This document shows, one piece after another, positions 3,306-14,587 of a DNA stretch of 39,744 bases (position 1 is the first letter of the stretch; each line of letters opens with the position of its first letter). The notes under the pieces were generated by a model. That model was not told the origin of the DNA. It was given only the letters and a program-made list of their open reading frames with translations, and did no database searches. Made by a program: the position numbers and the translations under genes. This DNA comes from a virus. The stretch covers positions 1 through 39,744 of IMG/VR virus record IMGVR_UViG_3300045944_000197; one strand, written 5' to 3'.

Positions 3306-3731
3306 ATGAGATGCGAACGCTGTCAAGGTTCTGGATGGGAACCAACTGGGTCATACCCCAACCCCTGTGATGATTGCGGAGGTTATGGTATAACCCACTG
3401 TTGTGACGGTTTAAGGGAACAAGCTGATGCCAGAAGTCAAGATGGTCGAGATAGCCTCGATCGTGGTCAATCGGGATCTCAGACAGAGGCGGGAACTCAA
3501 TGTGGACGACTTGATTACGTCGATCCAGCTGAACGAAAAAGCCCTGCCCGAGACTATGGGCCTCATCCAGCCTATCGTACTCCGCAACGGCACCACACTG
3601 GTGGCCGGAGAGAGGCGTTTAACTGCGTTCAAGAACCTGGGCCGATCGAAGATACCAGCGATAGCGATCGAGAGCCTGGACGACAGGACGGCCTACATCC
3701 TGGAATTGGAGGAGAACCTCCGTCGTGCTGA
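3306..3731 (+). CDS. DnaJ-type zinc-finger protein, overlapping the next gene
   Basis: The first 38 codons (before the ParB start at 3427) encode a DnaJ-like cysteine-rich motif: CERCQGSGW, then CDDCGGYG, then HCCDG. Small proteins with this repeat are common in phage operons. The frame then stays open for about 305 bases out of frame inside the ParB-methyltransferase gene, where the predicted sequence turns into low-quality Arg/Gly/Pro/Asp-rich residues. Either the tail is genuinely overprinted, or the real protein ends near 3414. A TAA one frame over at 3412-3414 would be used if one T of TTT (3410-3412) were removed, ending the protein at HCCDG. The zinc motif is solid; the 3' end is not. 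Confidence 0.55.
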   Translation: MRCERCQGSGWEPTGSYPNPCDDCGGYGITHCCDGLREQADARSQDGRDSLDRGQSGSQTEAGTQCGRLDYVDPAERKSPARDYGPHPAYRTPQRHHTGGRREAFNCVQEPGPIEDTSDSDREPGRQDGLHPGIGGEPPSC

Positions 3732-4800
3732 CATAAGTTGGCAGGAGCGCTCCAAGGCTTTCAAGGCCATTCACGACAGCTTCCTCGTCGACGACCCAGA
3801 GTGGACGCAGGTGAAGACGGCTGCGCGGCTGGGCGTGTCGGAGGCCACGGTGACGATGTATATCTCTCTGGCCGAGGAGATGGTCAACGACCCCAACCTG
3901 CGGACAATCCCGAAGGCCACCACGGCTTATGAGACCATCAAACGCCGGGTCGATAGGCAGCTCGACGATGTGCTGGTGTCGATGCCCCTGGCAGTCCGTA
4001 ACGTGGTGATCCCGCCTCAGCTGGATAAGAGCAATCTAATGGCGAGGGCACCTGTTGTGCCCGAAGCCCCGAAGCACATGGCTGCGGGTAGCTCCCTCAT
4101 CAACGCCGACTTCATAGAGTGGGCAGCCAACTATAAGGGTCCGCGCTTTAACTTAATCCACTGTGATTTCCCCTATGGGGCGGCTGCGGGCAAGAAGGGT
4201 AGCCAGATCCATGCGGGTGGGAGTCACCGCAGCTATGAAGACAGCGACGACATATTCTGGGAACTAATGGACGCGCTGTTCGTGCCGAACATTATAGCAC
4301 AGAGTGCGCACATTCTGCTGTGGTATCAGACTTCGGAATTTAGGAGGGTGATGGGCTATCTGGAAGGGCTGCTGCTTGACCTCAGAGTGCTAGATGTCCC
4401 CTTGATCTGGCATAAGAGCGATAACAGCGGAGTGGTGGCGGATGCTTCAAGACGACCCAGACACATCTATGAGAATGCCCTGCTTATTAGCAGGGGAGAC
4501 AGGAAAATTGTGTCCCCTGTCAGCGACGTGCACTCGTGTCCCATCACGAGAGCTATTCATCCGAGTGAGAAACCTGAGCCAATGCTTAGATACTTCTTCA
4601 AAATGTTGGTCAGTAGTACAACTCGGATGCTTGACCCCACCGCAGGAAGTGGCACCAGCCTGCGAGCGGCTGAAAGTCTTGGTGCTGAATTTGTCTTCGG
4701 CTTGGAACGTGACGAGCACTTTCATGGCGAGGCAGTGGCAGAGCTGGAACGCTTTAGAAAAAAGCGTGCAGCTGAACAACTGGAAGGAAGTAAGGAATGA
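3427..4800 (+). CDS. ParB-like N-terminal domain fused to a DNA methyltransferase
   Basis: A 457-residue fusion. Residues about 6-120 are a ParB/Spo0J-type domain (GERRLTAFKNLG at 61-72, ENLRRADISWQER at 96-108), followed by a helix-turn-helix at about 128-150 (TAARLGVSEATVTMY). Residues about 222-445 are an amino-methyltransferase. The catalytic motif DFPYG (247-251, DPPY-type) comes before HPSEKP (378-383) and the SAM-binding motif DPTAGSGTS (403-411), the order of beta-class N4/N6 enzymes. The fusion suggests a methyltransferase guided to DNA by the ParB/HTH part. The function could be self-modification against host restriction or regulation; the target base and site cannot be read from the sequence. 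The ATG follows an AAGGGA ribosome site, and no partner restriction gene is visible. Confidence 0.9.
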   Translation: MPEVKMVEIASIVVNRDLRQRRELNVDDLITSIQLNEKALPETMGLIQPIVLRNGTTLVAGERRLTAFKNLGRSKIPAIAIESLDDRTAYILELEENLRRADISWQERSKAFKAIHDSFLVDDPEWTQVKTAARLGVSEATVTMYISLAEEMVNDPNLRTIPKATTAYETIKRRVDRQLDDVLVSMPLAVRNVVIPPQLDKSNLMARAPVVPEAPKHMAAGSSLINADFIEWAANYKGPRFNLIHCDFPYGAAAGKKGSQIHAGGSHRSYEDSDDIFWELMDALFVPNIIAQSAHILLWYQTSEFRRVMGYLEGLLLDLRVLDVPLIWHKSDNSGVVADASRRPRHIYENALLISRGDRKIVSPVSDVHSCPITRAIHPSEKPEPMLRYFFKMLVSSTTRMLDPTAGSGTSLRAAESLGAEFVFGLERDEHFHGEAVAELERFRKKRAAEQLEGSKE

Positions 4801-5222
4801 ATGTCATGAATGAAAATCTGACACCTCGTAACAAGATCCTAGTTGAGAGCGTAAGAAAGCTCCAAGCGGAGGATAAGATCTATGGCGAACCGACAGCGTA
4901 TGCCGCCTGTGCCGGCGAACTCCAACGCGTCCTGCTCAAGTATGCGTCGAGAAGTGTTAGACGTGTGGGACCCGCAGAACACTCGGCCCTGGACCAGGTG
5001 CTTATGTGTATTGCGAGAATTGGATGTGGGCCAGTGGTTATTGACGGTCTATATACTGAAGGAGCAGCGCAACTGGCCATCGCGGGAGAAGCTGCCATTC
5101 ATTCGACTGGCGAAGCTCGTCCAGTGGATGTACACGAACGAAAGCAGTTCGATGACGAAGCCATGACTGACCAACTGGCAGCACAGGTCGAGAAAGACTT
5201 TCTCACGGACCAAACTGAATGA
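4797..5222 (+). CDS. DUF6378-like phage protein
   Basis: A 141-residue protein starting in an ATGA overlap with the methyltransferase gene; a second in-frame ATG lies at 4806. The spacing of elements (an AEDKIYGEP segment, a helical stretch, ALDQVLMCIARIGCGP, then an AAQLAIAGEAA helix) follows the helical phage family DUF6378, whose function is not established. The typical DRxxxYGDP start is altered to EDKIYGEP here. The C-terminus is acidic and probably flexible. The ATGA overlap with the glycosylase/exonuclease gene suggests co-expression with the polymerase set. Confidence 0.6.
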   Translation: MNVMNENLTPRNKILVESVRKLQAEDKIYGEPTAYAACAGELQRVLLKYASRSVRRVGPAEHSALDQVLMCIARIGCGPVVIDGLYTEGAAQLAIAGEAAIHSTGEARPVDVHERKQFDDEAMTDQLAAQVEKDFLTDQTE

Positions 5223-6280
5223 ACATCCAGTATCCGCCCATGAAGGCTACGGGGCCGAAAGATGCCAAGATTATGTGCATCGGTGAGGCTCCAGGTGCAG
5301 AGGAGATGATGACCGGCCAGCCCTTCGTGGGCTGGTCTGGTAAAGAGTTAAGGAAGATGCTCTGGCAGTCGGGCATCGATCCGGCCCAGGTCTATATGAC
5401 CAACGTGTTCTTCATTCGGCCCCAGGATAACAAGATCGAGAACTTCTGCACCAGAACGAGGGACAAGGGCATTGCAGGAATGCCTGCCCTAAGCCCAGGC
5501 AACTACGTCTACAACCCTTTTACACCCGAGCTGGAGAGACTCTATGATGAGATTGAAGCTGTTCGGCCGAACGTTATCGCTGCATTGGGGAACACACCCT
5601 GTTGGGCCGTCTTCAGACAGACTCCGAAAATATCTCTTCTTCGCGGTCGCGTTCGGGAAGCATCCATTCGAGGACGGAAGTATAAAGTGCTACCATCCTT
5701 TCACCCAGCATATATCCTTAGGCAGTGGAAGGAACGTGTTGTTGTACTCCAGGATCTACACAAACTCAAAAGGGAGTCAGGCTACCCGGATATTCGGTTG
5801 CCAGTACGCAAGGTTCTCATAGACCCTACGTTTCAGGAGGCACTGGATTTTCTGGACCGCTGCAACCACGCGAACGAGATAACCGTGGACGTGGAGACGA
5901 AGGGCGGGCAAATCACTGTGTGCGGGTTTGGGCTGAGTCCTGCCGAGGCGGCTGTCATTCCGTTCGTAGATCATAGACGGCCAGACTATTGTTATTGGTC
6001 GGAAGAGAAAGAGTTAGTTTTGGTGAAGCGTATCCGCCAGGTGCTGGCAAACCCACACGTTGCAAAGATCTTGCAGAACGGGCTGTATGACATAACGTAC
6101 TTCTGGGAGAACTGGAGAGCAGTAGTCCGTGGTCCGTTCGAGGACACGATGTTAATCCAGCACGCGTTGTGGCCGGAACTTAAGAAGGACTTAGGGACGC
6201 TTGCGTCCATCCACACTGATGAGGCGTCATGGAAGACCATGCGTCTACGGAACCGAGATGATTTCAAGAGGGAAGAATGA
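5219..6280 (+). CDS. Uracil-DNA glycosylase fused to the N-terminal part of a 3'-5' exonuclease
   Basis: A 353-residue protein. Residues 1-185 resemble family 4/5 uracil-DNA glycosylases: GEAPGAEE (22-29), GQPFVGWSG (33-41) and the HPAYILR loop (162-168). The usual four-cysteine Fe-S set is not evident (only Cys20, Cys77, Cys128). Residues 215-340 begin a DnaQ-like proofreading domain of polymerase I type: ExoI is VDVET (223-227) and ExoII is NGLYDITYF (287-295), followed by LGTLASIHTDEASWK. The protein stops before ExoIII, which is found at the start of the polymerase protein at 6711. It therefore looks like the front half of a broken glycosylase-exonuclease-polymerase. It ends DFKREE, and the same KREE occurs at the start of the polymerase. 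Confidence 0.85.
   Translation: MNIQYPPMKATGPKDAKIMCIGEAPGAEEMMTGQPFVGWSGKELRKMLWQSGIDPAQVYMTNVFFIRPQDNKIENFCTRTRDKGIAGMPALSPGNYVYNPFTPELERLYDEIEAVRPNVIAALGNTPCWAVFRQTPKISLLRGRVREASIRGRKYKVLPSFHPAYILRQWKERVVVLQDLHKLKRESGYPDIRLPVRKVLIDPTFQEALDFLDRCNHANEITVDVETKGGQITVCGFGLSPAEAAVIPFVDHRRPDYCYWSEEKELVLVKRIRQVLANPHVAKILQNGLYDITYFWENWRAVVRGPFEDTMLIQHALWPELKKDLGTLASIHTDEASWKTMRLRNRDDFKREE
6266..6277 (+). repeat. Direct repeat, left copy, flanking the DUF1937 gene
   Basis: AAGAGGGAAGAA encodes the last four residues (KREE) of the glycosylase/exonuclease protein. It matches 11 of 12 bases at 6738-6749, where it encodes residues 10-13 (KREE) of the polymerase. The two copies bracket the whole DUF1937 gene. 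Could be chance, but the shared reading of both copies argues for an insertion scar. Confidence 0.5.
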
Positions 6281-6711
6281 TTTACATTGCCAGCCCTTAT
6301 AGCCACAAAGATAAGGAAGTTGTGAGGCGGAGGTACTGGGTCACTGCTCAGTTCACGTTCGCCGGGATCAGGCAGGACATGCCCTTGTTCTCCCCAATTC
6401 TCCACTGTCATGACGCGGCACAGCTCCTCAACGTCCCGACAGATAGCAAATTCTGGGGGAGCTACAATAAGAACATGCTCACGCACAGCAGTCATCTGGT
6501 TGTGCTAGGGTTGCCAGACTGGGAGGACTCGATAGGAGTCGAGATGGAAGTCAAGGCTGCTGAGGAAATGCAGGTCCCTGTGTATATTTACACTGTGGAC
6601 AACGTGCAGACGGACTTCACAGAGAGGTTCTTAATCCTGTGGGAGAGTCCTTGGACCCGGTTCAAACGGTTACAGTCTAGTGTCGTCGGTAAGTACAAGG
6701 TTCTAAGCTAA
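6277..6711 (+). CDS. DUF1937 protein (deoxyribosyltransferase-like)
   Basis: A 144-residue protein. It starts MIYIASPYSH and contains FSPILHCH (about 38-45), DSKFW, and LVVLGLPDWEDSIGVEMEVKA (about 74-94, a Rossmann-like nucleotide-site segment with a Glu), which is the DUF1937 pattern. That family is related to nucleoside 2-deoxyribosyltransferases, so a role in nucleotide or base exchange is possible but unproven. The C-terminal 40 residues have no clear match. The gene sits between the two halves of a split polymerase. Its ATG overlaps the TGA of the exonuclease part, and its TAA shares a base with the polymerase ATG. Confidence 0.75.
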   Translation: MIYIASPYSHKDKEVVRRRYWVTAQFTFAGIRQDMPLFSPILHCHDAAQLLNVPTDSKFWGSYNKNMLTHSSHLVVLGLPDWEDSIGVEMEVKAAEEMQVPVYIYTVDNVQTDFTERFLILWESPWTRFKRLQSSVVGKYKVLS

Positions 6712-8312
6712 TGCCTTGGGTGGACACTAGCCTAATTAAGAGGGAGGAACTGGTCGGCGAGCACAGTCTCCAGGTCTACAACGGTCTTGACTGCTGTATG
6801 ACCTTTGAGATCTGGGAATCGTTGATGCAGGACATGGAGGACGTGGAGCATAGCGCAGCCGCGAAGCGAGTCTATGACTTCGAGCGGGGGATGTGTGCGC
6901 CAAGCTTCGTGATGTCCCGCAGAGGCGTGCTCGTCGACCAGTTCTACAGAGATAAAGTCAGGGCGGAATTGGAAGCCGACCTGGACAAGGCGGATAGGAG
7001 GTTCCAGAACTTGGCCAGGGCGGTGTGGGGTGAACCCTATGCCGATCGGAACAAGTATCCGGACAAGCGCACCTTCTCGCTGAACTATAGTAGCCCGGAT
7101 CAGCTGAAGGCCTTTTTCTATGAGGCCCTCCAGCTGCCAGTGCGCTATACGTTCGTGAAGGGCGACCAGAAGATAACTGTCAATCGAGAGGCTTTGGAGT
7201 GGATAGACGAGAATGCCCAGTGGGGTGGGATATTTGCCAGGTACATTATCGCGATGCGCGACTACCGGAAAAAGATTTCGGTGCTGAAGAAGCAACTGTC
7301 GGCAGACGGCCGGATGAGGTGCTCGTATAATGTTGCTGGAACTGAGACTGGACGTTGGTCAAGTTCTGAAGATCCCTTTGGAAACGGAGATAACCTACAA
7401 AATTGGACTAAGAAGATGCGTAGGTGTGTCGTCGCCGATCCTGGCTACCGACTATATAGTATCGATTACTCTCAAGCAGAATCCTTTGTCACCGGCGGAC
7501 TTGCCTATCGGGATGGAAGGGACAAGGCTTATCTTACTGCCTGCCGTTCAGGCGATCTCCATACAGCCGTCACCAAGGAAGTTTGGCCTGACCTCGGATG
7601 GTCGGGTGACAAGGCTGAAGACAAAGCGATCGCGGAGCAGCCCTTTTACTTCGCTCTCAGTTACCGTGATACGACCAAGCGACTTGGACACGGATCTAAC
7701 TACCTTGGATCCGCACCTCACCTCGCTAAGATTACCCGTACAGACAAAGACTCGGTCTTCGCCTTTCAGGCCAAGTATTTTCGACGCTTCCCGGGTATTA
7801 AACGCTATCATGCGCAACAGATAGCTAGAGTTCAGATGGAGCATCAGGTTGAAACAGTCCTCGGACGGCGACGGCACTTCTTCGGGCACCCACTTGATGC
7901 GGCGACCCATAGGAAGGCAATTGCTTTTGATCCTCAGTCTACTGTTGGGGATATGCTTAATCTGGCACTCTGGAAAGTGTGGTATGAACTGGATGAGTGG
8001 GGACCCAGTCACGGGCCTCTGCAGCTGCTCCTCCAAGTCCATGACAATATCGTGTTTCAACTACCTGAAATCCTTGGTGAAGACGAGCACATAAGGATTC
8101 TGGCGAGAGTCATGGAACTCTTACAGATCGAACTCAGATTCCTAGACGAGGTGGTGACGGTTCCGGCAGACGTTGAGTACGGTTGGAACTGGGCACCAAA
8201 GAAAGTGGATAAGAGCAACATCGATGGCCTTGATTCTTGGCGCCCAACAGGGATCAATCGGACAAGACAGTTCGCAACGGAAACTGTCAGATTGGATCAA
8301 CTCGCTTTATGA
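6711..8312 (+). CDS. Family A DNA polymerase (carries ExoIII; rest of exonuclease split off)
   Basis: A 533-residue polymerase. Near the N-terminus YNGLDCCMT (23-31) looks like proofreading motif ExoIII, while ExoI and ExoII are on the protein at 5219-6280. Polymerase signatures follow: TGRWSSSEDP (213-222), motif A YSIDYSQAE with Asp252, motif B RDTTKRLGHGSNY (319-331), and motif C QVHDNIVF (442-449) with Asp445. Motif C normally reads HDE; here the third residue is Asn446. It is the likely replicative polymerase. The missing exonuclease motifs imply that the two polypeptides assemble, or that proofreading is lost. No intein motifs or intron are evident between the halves; an ordinary gene is there. 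Confidence 0.92.
   Translation: MPWVDTSLIKREELVGEHSLQVYNGLDCCMTFEIWESLMQDMEDVEHSAAAKRVYDFERGMCAPSFVMSRRGVLVDQFYRDKVRAELEADLDKADRRFQNLARAVWGEPYADRNKYPDKRTFSLNYSSPDQLKAFFYEALQLPVRYTFVKGDQKITVNREALEWIDENAQWGGIFARYIIAMRDYRKKISVLKKQLSADGRMRCSYNVAGTETGRWSSSEDPFGNGDNLQNWTKKMRRCVVADPGYRLYSIDYSQAESFVTGGLAYRDGRDKAYLTACRSGDLHTAVTKEVWPDLGWSGDKAEDKAIAEQPFYFALSYRDTTKRLGHGSNYLGSAPHLAKITRTDKDSVFAFQAKYFRRFPGIKRYHAQQIARVQMEHQVETVLGRRRHFFGHPLDAATHRKAIAFDPQSTVGDMLNLALWKVWYELDEWGPSHGPLQLLLQVHDNIVFQLPEILGEDEHIRILARVMELLQIELRFLDEVVTVPADVEYGWNWAPKKVDKSNIDGLDSWRPTGINRTRQFATETVRLDQLAL
6738..6749 (+). repeat. Direct repeat, right copy, flanking the DUF1937 gene
   Basis: AAGAGGGAGGAA, one mismatch from 6266-6277. Both copies are read as KREE. 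Joining the two proteins at this repeat gives a continuous exonuclease domain, with ExoII, then LGTLASIHTDEASWK, then KREELVGEHSLQVYNG (ExoIII). Confidence 0.5.
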
Positions 8313-10188: not shown

Positions 10189-10495
10189 GATCGAGGACCA
10201 CATTAACGAACCATCTATCAGCTCCTTGAAACGCGAAGCCTGATGAGATCCCCCAGAGCTGTGGCCCTCCCCTAGCCTGGACGTGCCTCAAGGCACATGG
10301 GACATTCTGACTGCTTAGCTCTGAGTAGGTACTCAGAAATCGATCCAGTAGATCCTTATCGTCCAAGGCCCGGTAAATGACATATACTGGGACAGCAATG
10401 ATAGCCAGCAGAGCAATGACAAGGACGTTTCCAAGTGAAAGTCCTTTAATCGCTCCAAGCCAACTAACATATTTATCAGGTCCCTGTTCCGTCAT
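10025..10495 (-). CDS. Membrane-anchored protein, i-spanin-like candidate
   Basis: A 156-residue protein with one transmembrane helix at about residues 20-43 (LGNVLVIALLAIIAVPVYVI) and a soluble C-terminal domain of about 110 residues, the topology of an inner-membrane spanin (Rz). A long coiled coil, normally expected, is not obvious; there are helical stretches (LLDRFLSTYSEL, ELVSYCESLKLIADRML). Its ATG overlaps the stop of the tail-fibre gene (ATGA), and its 3' third contains the nested secreted gene in another frame, an arrangement reminiscent of Rz/Rz1. An unrelated single-pass protein is possible. Confidence 0.6.
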   Translation of the reverse strand: MTEQGPDKYVSWLGAIKGLSLGNVLVIALLAIIAVPVYVIYRALDDKDLLDRFLSTYSELSSQNVPCALRHVQARGGPQLWGISSGFAFQGADRWFVNVVLDHEPTREELVSYCESLKLIADRMLGRGDQVHSGPVPGVTTDGGRHDRIVPEDQAQ

Positions 10496-11607
10496 GTCTT
10501 AATACAGTAGAGCAGTGCTACGTTGCGTGGCCTGTTTTCACTAGAATTGCTGGTACCACCGGTATCAGCCAGCGTCGTTGTGACCGTGTGAGTGTGTGCT
10601 GCCAACGCCGTGCCTGTGAAGGTGTGGGTGTGGCTGTCACTGGACGTTGTGAAGGTGTGGGTGTGCGCACCTGCCGAGCTGGTTGCCAGCGTGGCAATCG
10701 ACGGCGTGGTAGCACGGCCGGCATAGGACTGCGGGCCGCCATCCGAACCAATAGTGACGTTGTGGGTGTGCGCCCCAGCGGAAGCGGTTGTGCCAGTGTG
10801 CGTGTGAGCATCAGCAGTCAATGTACCAGCAGGTGTGCCAGCACTGATAGCTGCAGCGGTAGAAGTGGCAACGTGCGTGTGAGCTGGCATCTGCGCAGCC
10901 TGTGCTGTGCCAATAGCTCGGCTTGTATCAATGCCTCGACCATCGTCCCAGCCTCTGACAAATTCAGCACGCAGATCTGGCAACGCGAAGGTCGTTGATC
11001 CGTCGCCGGCTCCATAGAGCGTGCCGATCGCTGTGAACAGCGCGGCGTAGGTTGTACGACTAACGAGGGCTCCGTTACACTTCAGATAATTAGCTGGTGG
11101 CGTAGCCATAGCAGTCATGATGACTGTGCCAGTGGGTACACCGTCCAAACCTGCGGGACCAGTTGGCCCTGCTGGACCTGTGGGGCCTGCTGGACCTTGA
11201 GGACCCTGTATTCCTTGTGATCCAGTCGTTCCTGTATCACCCTTATCGCCCTTCGGCCCCTGCGCTCCTTGCGGTCCAGTCGGTCCTTCGGGTCCAGTTG
11301 GTCCTTGTGCACCAGTGGCACCTGTAGCTCCAGTTGCACCTGTCGGACCTTCTGGTCCTGGGGGTCCATCATTGCCAGTCGGTCCTGGGTTTCCGGGGAT
11401 TCCTTGTGGACCAGTTGCACCGTTCGCGCCGGCTGGACCCATTGGCCCCTGTGGACCGACCGATCCAGGTGCGCCCGGAATGCCCTGATCGCCTTGTGGG
11501 CCAGCTGGTCCGACGGGCCCGACAGGTCCTACTGGTCCCTGAGGCCCACGGCCACCGACCTCGGTGAAGATGACCTTGACAGGTGCCTCAATGAGTGTCT
11601 CGGCCAT
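10492..11607 (-). CDS. Collagen-like tail fibre with collar domain and His-x-His tip
   Basis: A 371-residue protein from the ATG at 11607 (overlapping the previous stop; a TTG lies three bases upstream). A short leader ([17 protein letters not shown]) precedes about 125 residues of GXY collagen repeats. A phage tail-collar domain follows ([20 protein letters not shown], then [20 protein letters not shown]). The last 130 residues carry repeated His-x-His units (TH, AHTH, SHTHTF) and end in [15 protein letters not shown], like the receptor-binding tips of lambdoid and T4 short fibres, where HxH sites hold metal. It is probably a host-recognition fibre. The leader and collagen part resemble the gene at 13080-14279. 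Confidence 0.9.
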
Positions 11608-13070
11608 CAAAAATACTCCGTGAAGACGATCATGCCGTTAGCAGCAATGCCTCCCGACGCCTGCGGTTGACTCGCGCCAATTGCGCCACCCTGTCCACCG
11701 CCGCCGGGGAAAATCGGATTGGTCAGCGTGGCCGCCCCGGAACTGATCGGCGTCCCCTGCATGTTCGGAGCGTAGAAGTTGCCGCCACCGAAGCCTTTGC
11801 CAGCCCATGCAGGATTGCCTGTCGCGCCCTTGACACCACCGAGACCTGCGCTGCCATTGACGTTGAGATCGCCTCCGGTTGCCGAGCCACCAGAACCACC
11901 AGCCACCTGCCCAGCGGTTCCAGCTGTACTCGGTGAGCCACCGGCACCACCACCTGCTGTCATACCCTTGAAGGTGGTATCTGCCGCGCTGCCGTTGGAC
12001 GAGCCGGAGCGAGCACCGAGGACGTAAGGCTCACCTGCGGCATTGAGATCGCTAGCGGCGTACAGCTTCTTACAGTAGGCACCTCCTCCACCACCGCCAC
12101 CAGCAGAGGACTGTCCAGTGCTGGTCAGCTCGGCGAGACCACCATTGCCGCCAGCTGCAACCAGCTCGACCTCGACATACTTTAATCCAGCGGGTGGGAC
12201 GTAAGTGCCTGCGCCGGTCGTGGTAACGTAGGTCTTGCGCATGTTGACGAAGCTGGAACCCTCGACCGTGTCGCCATCGACGAAGTACTCGGTCAGCACC
12301 ATGCGACCACCTGCGCCGACACCAGCCTGTCCTGCAGCGCCACCTGCGACTGACAGCGCTCCACAGCCGCCACCGCCTGGATGGTTACCGTTGGCACCTG
12401 CCTGTGTAGTACCGTCAGATGCAATGCGGCCACGAGGGTTTGTGCTCAACGCACCTGCGCCACCATCGGCCTGTCGGGAGGTGTTGCCGGTAGCTGCGTG
12501 ACCGACGCCGGAGCCGTTACCGTCGATGTTGACGTCACCTCCTGTTGCCAGGCCCCAAGCAGATCGGCCGCACGAGGTTGGCAATGCGACAGCTGCAGCT
12601 GCACCGCCGACTGTCGCCGCGCCACCACCTGCTGTCATACCCTTGAAGGTGGAATTGTTGCCGTTCTGCGAGACGCCGGATGGCGTAGTGCCGCCGCGCC
12701 CGATCAAGTAAGGCTCCGATGCTGCCAGTTCATCAGCTCGATAGGTCTTCTTGCAGTACGCGCCGCCACCACCACCTGCGCCGACAGAACCAGTGGTCGC
12801 TGCCGTCGCGCTAGAGTTCTGTCCAGCTGCGCCAGCACCCCACAGCTCGACGGTCAGGAATTTAAGGTTGGGTTGTTTGACGTAGTTGCCGGCAACGTCT
12901 GCTCCTCCGCCGTCCGCACCCTCGAGCGTCGTCACCTTCATCGACAAAGGCTGGATCGAACCGGCCGGCTGTGTTAACCAAACGACACCTGACCAAACAT
13001 AGGAGACGTTGGCGCCGGCGGGGGTGTAGATATCGCCAACTGCGGGGGAGGCTGGAAAGTCGAAAGCCAT
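11607..13070 (-). CDS. Glycine-rich adhesin/tail tip protein with internal duplication
   Basis: A 487-residue protein. The N-terminus (MAFDFPASPAVGDIYTPAG, then YVWSGVVWLTQ) is a common fibre-attachment segment. The rest is two copies of a roughly 200-residue glycine-rich module. Each has a hydrophobic strand (KFLTVELWGAG or KYVEVELVAAG), a poly-Gly turn into AYCKK, a YLIG/YVLG strand, TFKGMTAGGG, and an ending VLTEYF or VFTEYF. Such glycine-rich modules occur in receptor-binding adhesins, where Gly loops form the host-contact surface. It lies between two collagen-like fibre genes, with ATGA coupling to the next. Confidence 0.8.
   Translation of the reverse strand: MAFDFPASPAVGDIYTPAGANVSYVWSGVVWLTQPAGSIQPLSMKVTTLEGADGGGADVAGNYVKQPNLKFLTVELWGAGAAGQNSSATAATTGSVGAGGGGGAYCKKTYRADELAASEPYLIGRGGTTPSGVSQNGNNSTFKGMTAGGGAATVGGAAAAVALPTSCGRSAWGLATGGDVNIDGNGSGVGHAATGNTSRQADGGAGALSTNPRGRIASDGTTQAGANGNHPGGGGCGALSVAGGAAGQAGVGAGGRMVLTEYFVDGDTVEGSSFVNMRKTYVTTTGAGTYVPPAGLKYVEVELVAAGGNGGLAELTSTGQSSAGGGGGGGAYCKKLYAASDLNAAGEPYVLGARSGSSNGSAADTTFKGMTAGGGAGGSPSTAGTAGQVAGGSGGSATGGDLNVNGSAGLGGVKGATGNPAWAGKGFGGGNFYAPNMQGTPISSGAATLTNPIFPGGGGQGGAIGASQPQASGGIAANGMIVFTEYF
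11947..11977. repeat. Internal DNA repeat in the glycine-rich adhesin gene, copy 2
   Basis: Thirty-one bases here are identical to 12622-12652. They encode the TFKGMTAGGG segment of each duplicated module. The identity over third-codon positions suggests a recent duplication or gene conversion within an otherwise diverged pair. Confidence 0.75.
12622..12652. repeat. Internal DNA repeat in the glycine-rich adhesin gene, copy 1
   Basis: Identical to 11947-11977 over 31 bases; the surrounding module sequence has diverged much more than this core. Confidence 0.75.
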
Positions 13071-13079
13071 CGTTATGCC

Positions 13080-14279
13080 TCACGGATTATCAGTAGCGAA
13101 GACGGCATTAACCTGAATAGATGCTGCCGTGTCCATAGCCAGCCCAGCTGCATTTCCACCGGAAGCAAAGGTTTGGATACCGATACCTGTGCCGGTAGAG
13201 GCAGAAACATAGCCGGTCAGTTGGCCAGAGAAGGTCAGGCCACTACCATACACAGCGGTACAGATGGCCGACGGATTGCCTATGCTGCCGAACGGCAGGC
13301 CGCCGATGAAGATGTTACCTGTGCCAGTATGAGCGGTCCAGGTCAACGAGCCTTCAAGATAAACTATTCTGCCATGACGAGTCCAGCGCCCCTGTTGAAC
13401 AGTGTAAGTGCCGACACCAGCAGCTGTGCTGCCATAAATAGTTGGCGTCCAGAGGCCTGTGGTCTCCTTGACGAAGCCTGTTGTATCAATGTTCGGCCCT
13501 GGAACCTCGACCCATTGGCTGGTATTGGCATCTTGATAGTAGATGAACAGACGCCCAGTACTTGATTGCCACCAAAGCTGCCCAACCTTAGGCGAAGAGG
13601 GTGGCGCGTCACCGATCGAGGTTGCGGCCGCAGCGGCTGCTAATGCGGCAGCCACAAAGGCTGTCGTCGCAATAGAGGTGTCGGCGTCACCTGCAGTTGG
13701 TGTTGGCGCGGTCGGATTGCCTGTCAGAGCTGGGCTAGCCAGCGGTGCTTTCAGGGCATCTTGTGAATCAACATAGGTCTTGTCGGCCTTGGCTGCGATC
13801 AACGTGTCTTGGGCTGCTTGTGCTGCATCAAGGCCGGTCACACCGGAGCTGGCAATAGGTAGGGTCGGCGGGAAAGTGGCGGGCTTGCCTGTAATGCCAG
13901 CCCAGTCCGTGGTTCCCGCAGGACCTGTTGGGCCTTGGGGACCCTGTGGACCCTGGATACCCTGCGCTCCTGTGTTACCAGTCGGGCCAATTGGACCCTG
14001 AGGCCCTTCCGGACCTGCTGGTCCCGGAGGCCCGTCGTTACCTTGAGGGCCTGGGTTGCCTTGCGGACCCTGGGAACCTGTTGCACCAGTCGCGCCTGTA
14101 GGACCTGCCGGGCCTTGAGGACCAGGTGATCCGGCGATACCCTGTGGACCTTCAGGACCGACTGGGCCAATGGGACCGACAGGTCCCATAGAGCCGTCTG
14201 GTCCTTGAGGGCCTCGGACACCGGCTTCCTCAAAGACGATCTTGACTGGTACGTTCTCGACAGACAGCTTGATAGTCAT
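13080..14279 (-). CDS. Collagen-like tail fibre protein
   Basis: A 399-residue protein from the ATG at 14279, which overlaps the previous stop (ATGA); the frame also opens upstream at 14294. The leader VENVPVKIVFEEAGVRGPQG is followed by about 110 residues of GXY collagen repeats. A linker region then has KTYVDSQDALKAPLASPALTG, a widespread fibre repeat. The next part (GDAPPSSPKVGQLWWQSSTG) ends in a beta-rich C-terminal domain. It is predicted to trimerise as a fibre. The leader and collagen block are paralogous to those of the gene at 10492-11607, while the C-terminal domains differ, suggesting two fibres on a common anchor. Confidence 0.85.
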   Translation of the reverse strand: MTIKLSVENVPVKIVFEEAGVRGPQGPDGSMGPVGPIGPVGPEGPQGIAGSPGPQGPAGPTGATGATGSQGPQGNPGPQGNDGPPGPAGPEGPQGPIGPTGNTGAQGIQGPQGPQGPTGPAGTTDWAGITGKPATFPPTLPIASSGVTGLDAAQAAQDTLIAAKADKTYVDSQDALKAPLASPALTGNPTAPTPTAGDADTSIATTAFVAAALAAAAAATSIGDAPPSSPKVGQLWWQSSTGRLFIYYQDANTSQWVEVPGPNIDTTGFVKETTGLWTPTIYGSTAAGVGTYTVQQGRWTRHGRIVYLEGSLTWTAHTGTGNIFIGGLPFGSIGNPSAICTAVYGSGLTFSGQLTGYVSASTGTGIGIQTFASGGNAAGLAMDTAASIQVNAVFATDNP

Positions 14280-14587
14280 TGAGCATCGATCCAAATCATG
14301 GGGAAGACGATCGATTGAGCAGGCACTGTGTATTTCAGACGTAGCTTGAACCAGGTCATCCGGCCCTGCTGAAGCTTCTGAGACTCCTCGTCGGTGATAG
14401 TGACGAAGAACGTGCCCTGAGCTGGATCGTTGGGAAGCACCTGCACGGCTGGCAGCTTGACGCCCAAGGTATCGTAGACATCCAGAGTGCCGTCACTATA
14501 ATCGAACGGCACATCTCCACTCTTGAAGAGCTGACCGCCGACGTTGAAGGTCGAGCCTTTGTTGAACTTGATCGTGTCGCCAGCCAT
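14276..14587 (-). CDS. Small beta-rich fibre-associated protein
   Basis: A 103-residue protein starting MAGDTIKFNKGSTFNVGGQLF. It has alternating hydrophobic strands (GTFFVTITDEE, MTWFKLRLKYTVPAQSIVF) and no signal or membrane helix. Its ATG shares a base with the stop of the small gene upstream, and its own stop overlaps the ATG of the collagen fibre gene. By size and position it may be a fibre adaptor or baseplate-like spacer; no family is recognised. Confidence 0.7.
   Translation of the reverse strand: MAGDTIKFNKGSTFNVGGQLFKSGDVPFDYSDGTLDVYDTLGVKLPAVQVLPNDPAQGTFFVTITDEESQKLQQGRMTWFKLRLKYTVPAQSIVFPMIWIDAQ

Follow-up and report, generated by a model that had tools for sequence, protein, structure and literature searches.

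A family-A replicative polymerase encoded in two halves, with the break inside its proofreading exonuclease fold, across a phage clade

Can a replicative DNA polymerase retain a proofreading exonuclease when the fold of that exonuclease is divided between two genes? The question is raised by IMG/VR virus record IMGVR_UViG_3300045944_000197, here called the window (the whole stretch analysed, 39,744 nucleotides (nt)). Its family-A polymerase is encoded as two proteins, the product of 5219-6280 (half 1) and that of 6711-8312 (half 2), and the break lies between motifs Exo II and Exo III of the 3'-5' exonuclease domain. A sequence-only reading of this DNA had proposed such a break and had suggested, as its central point, that the exonuclease, if both pieces are functional, is assembled from two polypeptides. 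That assembly is well supported but not proven. The split itself is a trait of a whole clade and not peculiar to this genome; its reach, over more than a hundred loci, and its one origin are the main additions to the earlier reading. The features of the locus are as follows.

5219-6280, + strand: half 1, a uracil-DNA glycosylase (UDG) domain (about residues 1-191) and an exonuclease core with Exo I and Exo II (about 197-341), with a charged tail at the end (PF03167, PHROG 17, AlphaFold2)
5885-5899, + strand: Exo I, VDVET, residues 223-227 of half 1, with metal ligands D224 and E226 (sequence, invariance in split loci)
6077-6091, + strand: Exo II, NGLYD, residues 287-291 of half 1, with ligand D291 (sequence, conservation in split loci)
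6230-6277, + strand: last residues of half 1, WKTMRLRNRDDFKREE, forming the upstream lip of the break (sequence, comparison of half 1 ends)
6277-6711, + strand: DUF1937 gene (nucleoside 2-deoxyribosyltransferase-like), in the slot between the halves and replaceable (PF09152, E 3e-16; phrog_355, E 9e-10)
6711-8312, + strand: half 2, the Exo III helix and a complete family-A polymerase domain, 533 amino acids (PF00476, E 1e-37; phrog_17, 806-1235)
6711-6776, + strand: 22-residue N-terminal leader MPWVDTSLIKREELVGEHSLQV of half 2, the downstream lip of the break (comparison of half 2 starts)
6777-6791, + strand: Exo III, YNGLD, residues 23-27 of half 2, with Y23 and D27 (conserved in split loci)

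The two halves are adjacent parts of a single polymerase, as had been proposed. The clearest evidence comes from PHROG 17, a profile of DNA polymerases that is 1445 positions long: half 1 covers 475-801 and half 2 covers 806-1235, and these stretches are consecutive, so no part of the polymerase is missing and none is repeated. The N-terminal domain of half 1 is a uracil-DNA glycosylase (PF03167, E 1e-27 in Pfam). An Exo III inside the 5219-6280 product, which would have spoken against the break, is absent: after Exo II the protein ends in WKTMRLRNRDDFKREE. It is instead the first 31 residues of half 2, a DNA_pol_A protein (PF00476), that include YNGLDCCMT (residues 23-31). The earlier placement of the three open reading frames (ORFs) and their motifs was correct, and all three exonuclease signatures (Exo I D-x-E, Exo II N-x3-D and Exo III Y-x3-D) are present, on two chains. 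The DUF1937 gene overlaps the half 1 gene by 4 nt (ATGA) and the half 2 gene by 1 nt (TAATG).

The same split is found well beyond the window, in a large group of phages of which most are uncultured. A profile search of IMG/VR gave at least 488 relatives, of which the best 80, ranked by similarity, were kept and other fetched loci, including phage, were added; among these, 81 related loci (numbered here with the prefix L) are split at the same position. Because these loci were similarity-ranked, a second sample was chosen with no criterion other than the Exo III motif, for which YNGLDCC[VIM]T was searched as degenerate DNA; this gave at least 114 loci. In 100 of them the polymerase is split with an exonuclease half upstream on the same strand and in 1 it is unsplit; 12 lie too near a contig edge to judge and 1 has no readable ORF around the motif. 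Among the matches listed, the split is thus present in 100 of 101 evaluable motif-chosen loci. Polymerase identity within the split set ranges from 35 to 92% (median 47%), and reaches at most 35% between split and unsplit proteins. In a maximum-likelihood tree of 85 polymerases, built by a quick method without bootstrap, split and unsplit sequences are the two sides of one branch (Shimodaira-Hasegawa-like approximate likelihood ratio test, 97), with one change, so that by the sequence comparison a single old event would account for the sampled split loci.

The nearest contigs, L001 and L002, share the arrangement. L002 is identical over its length and is possibly the same virus as the window. 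L001 encodes a polymerase 65% identical to that of the window with the same split and a DUF1937 gene between the halves, and its insert sequence differs. An isolated phage, Caulobacter phage Kuura, has the closest polymerase among the matches listed (38% identity; the next is at 28%) and the same cut; its slot holds two unrelated small genes. Its half 1 is labelled 'hypothetical protein', an example of how annotation overlooks a part of the replicase. Unsplit relatives with the same domain order are MW202489, Microcystis phage Mel-JY34, vir526 and a Desulfofustis phage. A DNA-level search of phage records with the first 20 kb of the window gave no match. A prophage and host search over one genome per GTDB species gave a single distant match (28% identity, on a Planctomycetota metagenome-assembled contig), and it therefore provides no host information.

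The position of the break is nearly constant. In all but a few of 184 halves, half 1 ends 12-16 residues past an invariant Trp-Lys (WK, 184/184), and its tail usually has the charges +,+,-,- (as in TIKRDE), while half 2 of the split loci often starts M(K/R)IIxT and reaches the Exo III Tyr after a median of 22 residues (quartiles 21-23). When mapped on unsplit homologues (Mel-JY34, MW202489 and others), as the sequence-only reading had recommended, the breakpoint falls in a loop (WKDEGKDWDAKTGEDQLWFYN) before YNxxD. That the break cuts the fold itself is also borne out, since the helix that the exonuclease lacks at its end is found as the first one of the polymerase chain.

The catalytic residues on both sides of the break are conserved. 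In half 1, D224 and E226 were invariant in the first split set (81/81 each), as was D291 (83/83); in the enlarged set the counts are 179/179 for D224, 179/179 for E226, 182/182 for N287 and 183/184 for D291. In half 2, Y23, N24 and D27 of Exo III are each kept in 88/88 split loci, and the palm Asp and the Asp of the HD motif in 86/86. Conservation of the Exo residues across the split loci excludes a chance origin of the motifs. The ratio of nonsynonymous to synonymous substitution rates (dN/dS; Nei-Gojobori, unsaturated pairs) is mostly 0.02-0.24 in each half, and stays mostly in that range when the exonuclease part or the first 45 codons of half 2 are taken by themselves, which indicates that both halves are under purifying selection; a value of 0.55 for the exonuclease part of L022 and L024 comes from a very close pair and is unreliable. 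Two separate genes thus jointly make up one polymerase and both are kept by selection, which is what is expected of a functionally split replicative polymerase.

The glycosylase site is less constant. Half 1 of the window has the fold and the GEAPG (residues 22-26; 5282-5296) and HP (H162-P163) motifs of a family-4 uracil-DNA glycosylase. In the split loci, motif A is mostly GEAWG or GEAYG in place of GEAPG (position 25 is W in 40, Y in 15 and P in 16, n = 78), and H162 of motif B is kept in 69 of 81 and replaced in 12. With the Exo residues fixed and H162 and P25 variable, constraint is stronger on the exonuclease site than on the glycosylase site, and glycosylase specificity or activity may, to judge from these replacements, have changed in parts of the clade.

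Structure predictions were consistent with a fold shared by two chains. Half 1 alone was predicted by AlphaFold2 with a mean predicted local distance difference test score (pLDDT) of 92.5 and a predicted template modelling score (pTM) of 0.85. The exonuclease sheet and helices run through residue 341 and the tail is disordered, with residues 348-353 below a pLDDT of 50; the predicted fold is thus confident even without the last exonuclease helix. The UDG part matches family-4 UDG 1ui0 (Z 21.6, root-mean-square deviation (rmsd) 1.8, 164 residues). The VIA-align listing for half 1 consists mostly of UDGs and says little on the exonuclease part; in Foldseek that part matches Klenow structures (E 2e-6 to 9e-6, about 150 columns). 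For the joined halves, use was made of L093, in which both are in one frame, separated by a single TGA and eight codons before the half 2 ATG. Its natural DNA was translated through the TGA, taken as a residue, so that both halves form one chain. This read-through model has a pLDDT of 94.1 and a pTM of 0.90, and the sole stretch below a pLDDT of 50 is 328-351, which runs from the half 1 tail across the stop into the beginning of half 2. Over residues 175-825 it superposes on the large fragments of Pol I (4dsi: Z 33.3, 542 aligned residues, rmsd 2.8; 6vdd: Z 34.7, 538 aligned, rmsd 3.5). The match requires both halves, because half 2 gives fewer than 490 residues of the L093 chain. The model shows a cut that would lie in a flexible loop, with the rest of the predicted fold complete.

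A model for the origin and action of the enzyme can be proposed from these results. A replicative polymerase of family A, with the domains UDG, exonuclease and polymerase in this order, would have been broken once, in the ancestor of the phage clade, in the exonuclease loop right before the Exo III helix, and two proteins would have been made ever since. Half 1 would contribute the UDG together with the exonuclease sheet, on which Exo I and Exo II (D224, E226, D291) lie, and half 2 would begin with the Exo III helix (Y23, D27) and continue into the polymerase. On binding, the halves would complete the exonuclease fold and form a two-metal proofreading site from residues of both chains, and the rebuilt enzyme would act as a Klenow fragment does, with a UDG added at its N terminus. 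Insertion of small genes, often of nucleotide metabolism, such as DUF1937, would be tolerated in the space between the two genes. We consider it highly probable that the halves assemble in trans in this way, into one UDG-exonuclease-polymerase with a proofreading site built from two chains. The retained catalytic residues, the purifying selection and the Klenow-like model support the assembly proposed in the sequence-only reading, and we infer from them that the halves associate physically, that the complex proofreads and that the loop is exposed to solvent. Some points weigh against this assembly. The L093 model joins the chains artificially and so shows compatibility of the halves rather than their association, and the alignment behind it contained unsplit relatives. 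Something other than proofreading might also preserve the catalytic residues, which is unlikely for five residues on two chains.

Other explanations of two such genes have to be considered alongside assembly in trans. An artefact of sequencing or assembly, or a gene decaying into a pseudogene, could be entertained only as long as a single genome is in view; the independent contig L001, with its 65% identity, different insert sequence and identical split, refutes it together with the 81 loci, the motif-chosen sample and the low dN/dS, and leaves it with next to no probability. The halves could also be joined before or after translation, by removal of a group I or II intron, by a split intein that splices in trans, or by programmed frameshifting or readthrough, to give a continuous polymerase. 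Introns and inteins do interrupt phage polymerase genes; introns are discussed for one such case (PMC10580990), and an intein-like insert is visible in L016. Rfam at its gathering threshold, however, found no intron in the window or in 11 relatives, nor did a search relaxed to E up to 5 find one in 6100-6900. In 15 of 81 pairs the half genes abut or overlap, which leaves no room for an intron, and in 61 of 81 their reading frames differ; an intron, intein or readthrough is therefore no general explanation. Half 1 moreover has a conserved end with a stop, half 2 has a conserved beginning with a start, and no intein-like termini were seen on reading the sequences. We regard such joining as very improbable.

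The halves might instead act separately, half 1 as a UDG with an exonuclease remnant that is structural or binds single-stranded DNA, and half 2 as a polymerase that lacks proofreading and keeps Exo III merely as its first helix. UDG domains do occur as separate proteins, and the helix with the Exo III Tyr and Asp runs on into the polymerase domain. The metal ligands of half 1 and the Tyr and Asp of half 2 are nevertheless kept in nearly every locus, more strictly than H162 of the glycosylase, whereas all three aspartates are replaced in divPolA1, a phage polymerase of family A in which proofreading is thought to have been lost (PMC11348598). Separate action is improbable, if less so than joining. 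An extension of the preferred assembly in trans is that the UDG-exonuclease subunit leaves and rejoins the polymerase subunit, so that proofreading and uracil removal are switched by association. We hold this to be rather unlikely; if true, the replicase would have an exchangeable half of its proofreading active site, and the split would be used, beyond being tolerated.

The sequence-only reading had noted DUF1937 as a third, unrelated gene between the halves. It does lie there in the window, but it is incidental, since the slot is elsewhere empty or holds other genes. The gap between the half genes ranges from -4 to 2305 nt (median 359, 81 loci). Among 85 slot ORFs from non-redundant loci, 12 match DUF7768, 7 DUF1937 and 17 the deoxyribosyltransferase PHROG 355, with a few matches to MazG, deoxynucleoside monophosphate kinase, HNH endonucleases and methyltransferases. 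To judge from this varied content, small genes are gained and lost at the slot, with some preference for nucleotide metabolism. In Mel-JY34 a DUF1937-like gene lies directly upstream of the intact polymerase. Invasion by a homing endonuclease has been argued as the origin of other split phage genes (PMC2988022). A similar invasion by an HNH or homing endonuclease may have been the origin of the present break; by analogy it would fit the HNH genes in a few slots. The slot of the window holds DUF1937 only, with no remnant of a homing endonuclease. A candidate direct repeat at the junction, in which 'aagagggaagaa' at the end of half 1 resembles 'aagagggaggaa' at the start of half 2, was taken as chance, because the second copy is lost in L001 and the first is a Shine-Dalgarno-like stretch before DUF1937.

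How does this polymerase compare with those already described? Unsplit phage UDG-exonuclease-polymerase fusions of PHROG 17 (SPO1-type, PaBG gp205, Mel-JY34) have the same three domains, order and catalytic residues, and the gene neighbourhood of Mel-JY34, with a methylase and a DUF3987 gene, is similar to that of the window. These fusions are single polypeptides with the exonuclease on one chain (PMC7412058), whereas the window and its split relatives encode two. By its sequence, the polymerase of the window appears as a derived, split relative of the PHROG 17 fusions. The Klenow fragment of E. coli Pol I and the large fragments of the Bst and Taq enzymes share the predicted overall fold of the joined halves, but are single chains and lack a UDG. 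Aeromonas phages 25 and 44RR likewise have a replicative polymerase of two proteins, gp43A and gp43B, in phage 25 with a gene between them; the two parts from phage 25 co-purify and are active (PMC2988022). They are, however, of the unrelated family B and are reported in few phages. Closer in family are the OM43 phages MEP401 and MEP402, in which a family-A polymerase lies in two ORFs with a small ORF between, an arrangement common to the phage group and suspected by the authors to reflect an intron (PMC10580990); there the break is within the polymerase domain and the exonuclease is whole. In the literature on split polymerases, of which few subscription papers were covered, we found no description of a clade-wide break through the exonuclease fold. 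The present case is distinct from known split polymerases in being cut through that fold, with the cut fixed across a deep and diverse clade. It would be a natural, old and widespread case of a replicative enzyme whose catalytic site is divided between two proteins, through a fold and not between domains. It allows a direct test of the assembly of a proofreading site in trans, and could serve as a natural blueprint for polymerases with proofreading added or withheld.

Other interruptions of the polymerase gene are seen among the relatives. In L112 (5590-5850), L117 (5180-5560) and L123 (5705-6640) the exonuclease is unsplit and the polymerase is broken in the palm between NLQN and motif A, at profile position 216|217. 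Between the two parts L117 has a small ORF, and in L123 an ORF resembling a methyltransferase can be read; Rfam detected no intron in these three relatives. The palm break looks like an independent second split. In L115 (1358-1680) and L121 (4642-4951) the gene is interrupted at the boundary between UDG and exonuclease, and in L115 a short ORF resembling an HNH endonuclease (HKCNNKLCVNTDHLYLGT) can be read in the insert, in a different frame. In L016 (6743-9498), and likewise in L017, the polymerase is interrupted after profile position 221, and the second ORF has an intein-like insert (CLVAGTEVLTPEGWV... to ISISGN before SNHSLNY) in the O-helix motif, judged by eye. In half 2, His327 (7689-7691), within K323-x3-H327-x3-Y331, is invariant in 86/86 split loci; from the motif alignment, we take its position to be that of E. 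coli Pol I Phe762.

Upstream of the polymerase, the ORF at 3427-4800 joins a ParB-like N-terminal domain (PF02195, E 2e-8) to a DNA methyltransferase (PF01555, E 8e-7), and a full-length relative of it is present in L001. Beside the tail genes, two genes on the - strand (10492-11610 and 13080-14294) have long collagen-like Gly-x-y repeats, and L001 also carries a gene resembling these.

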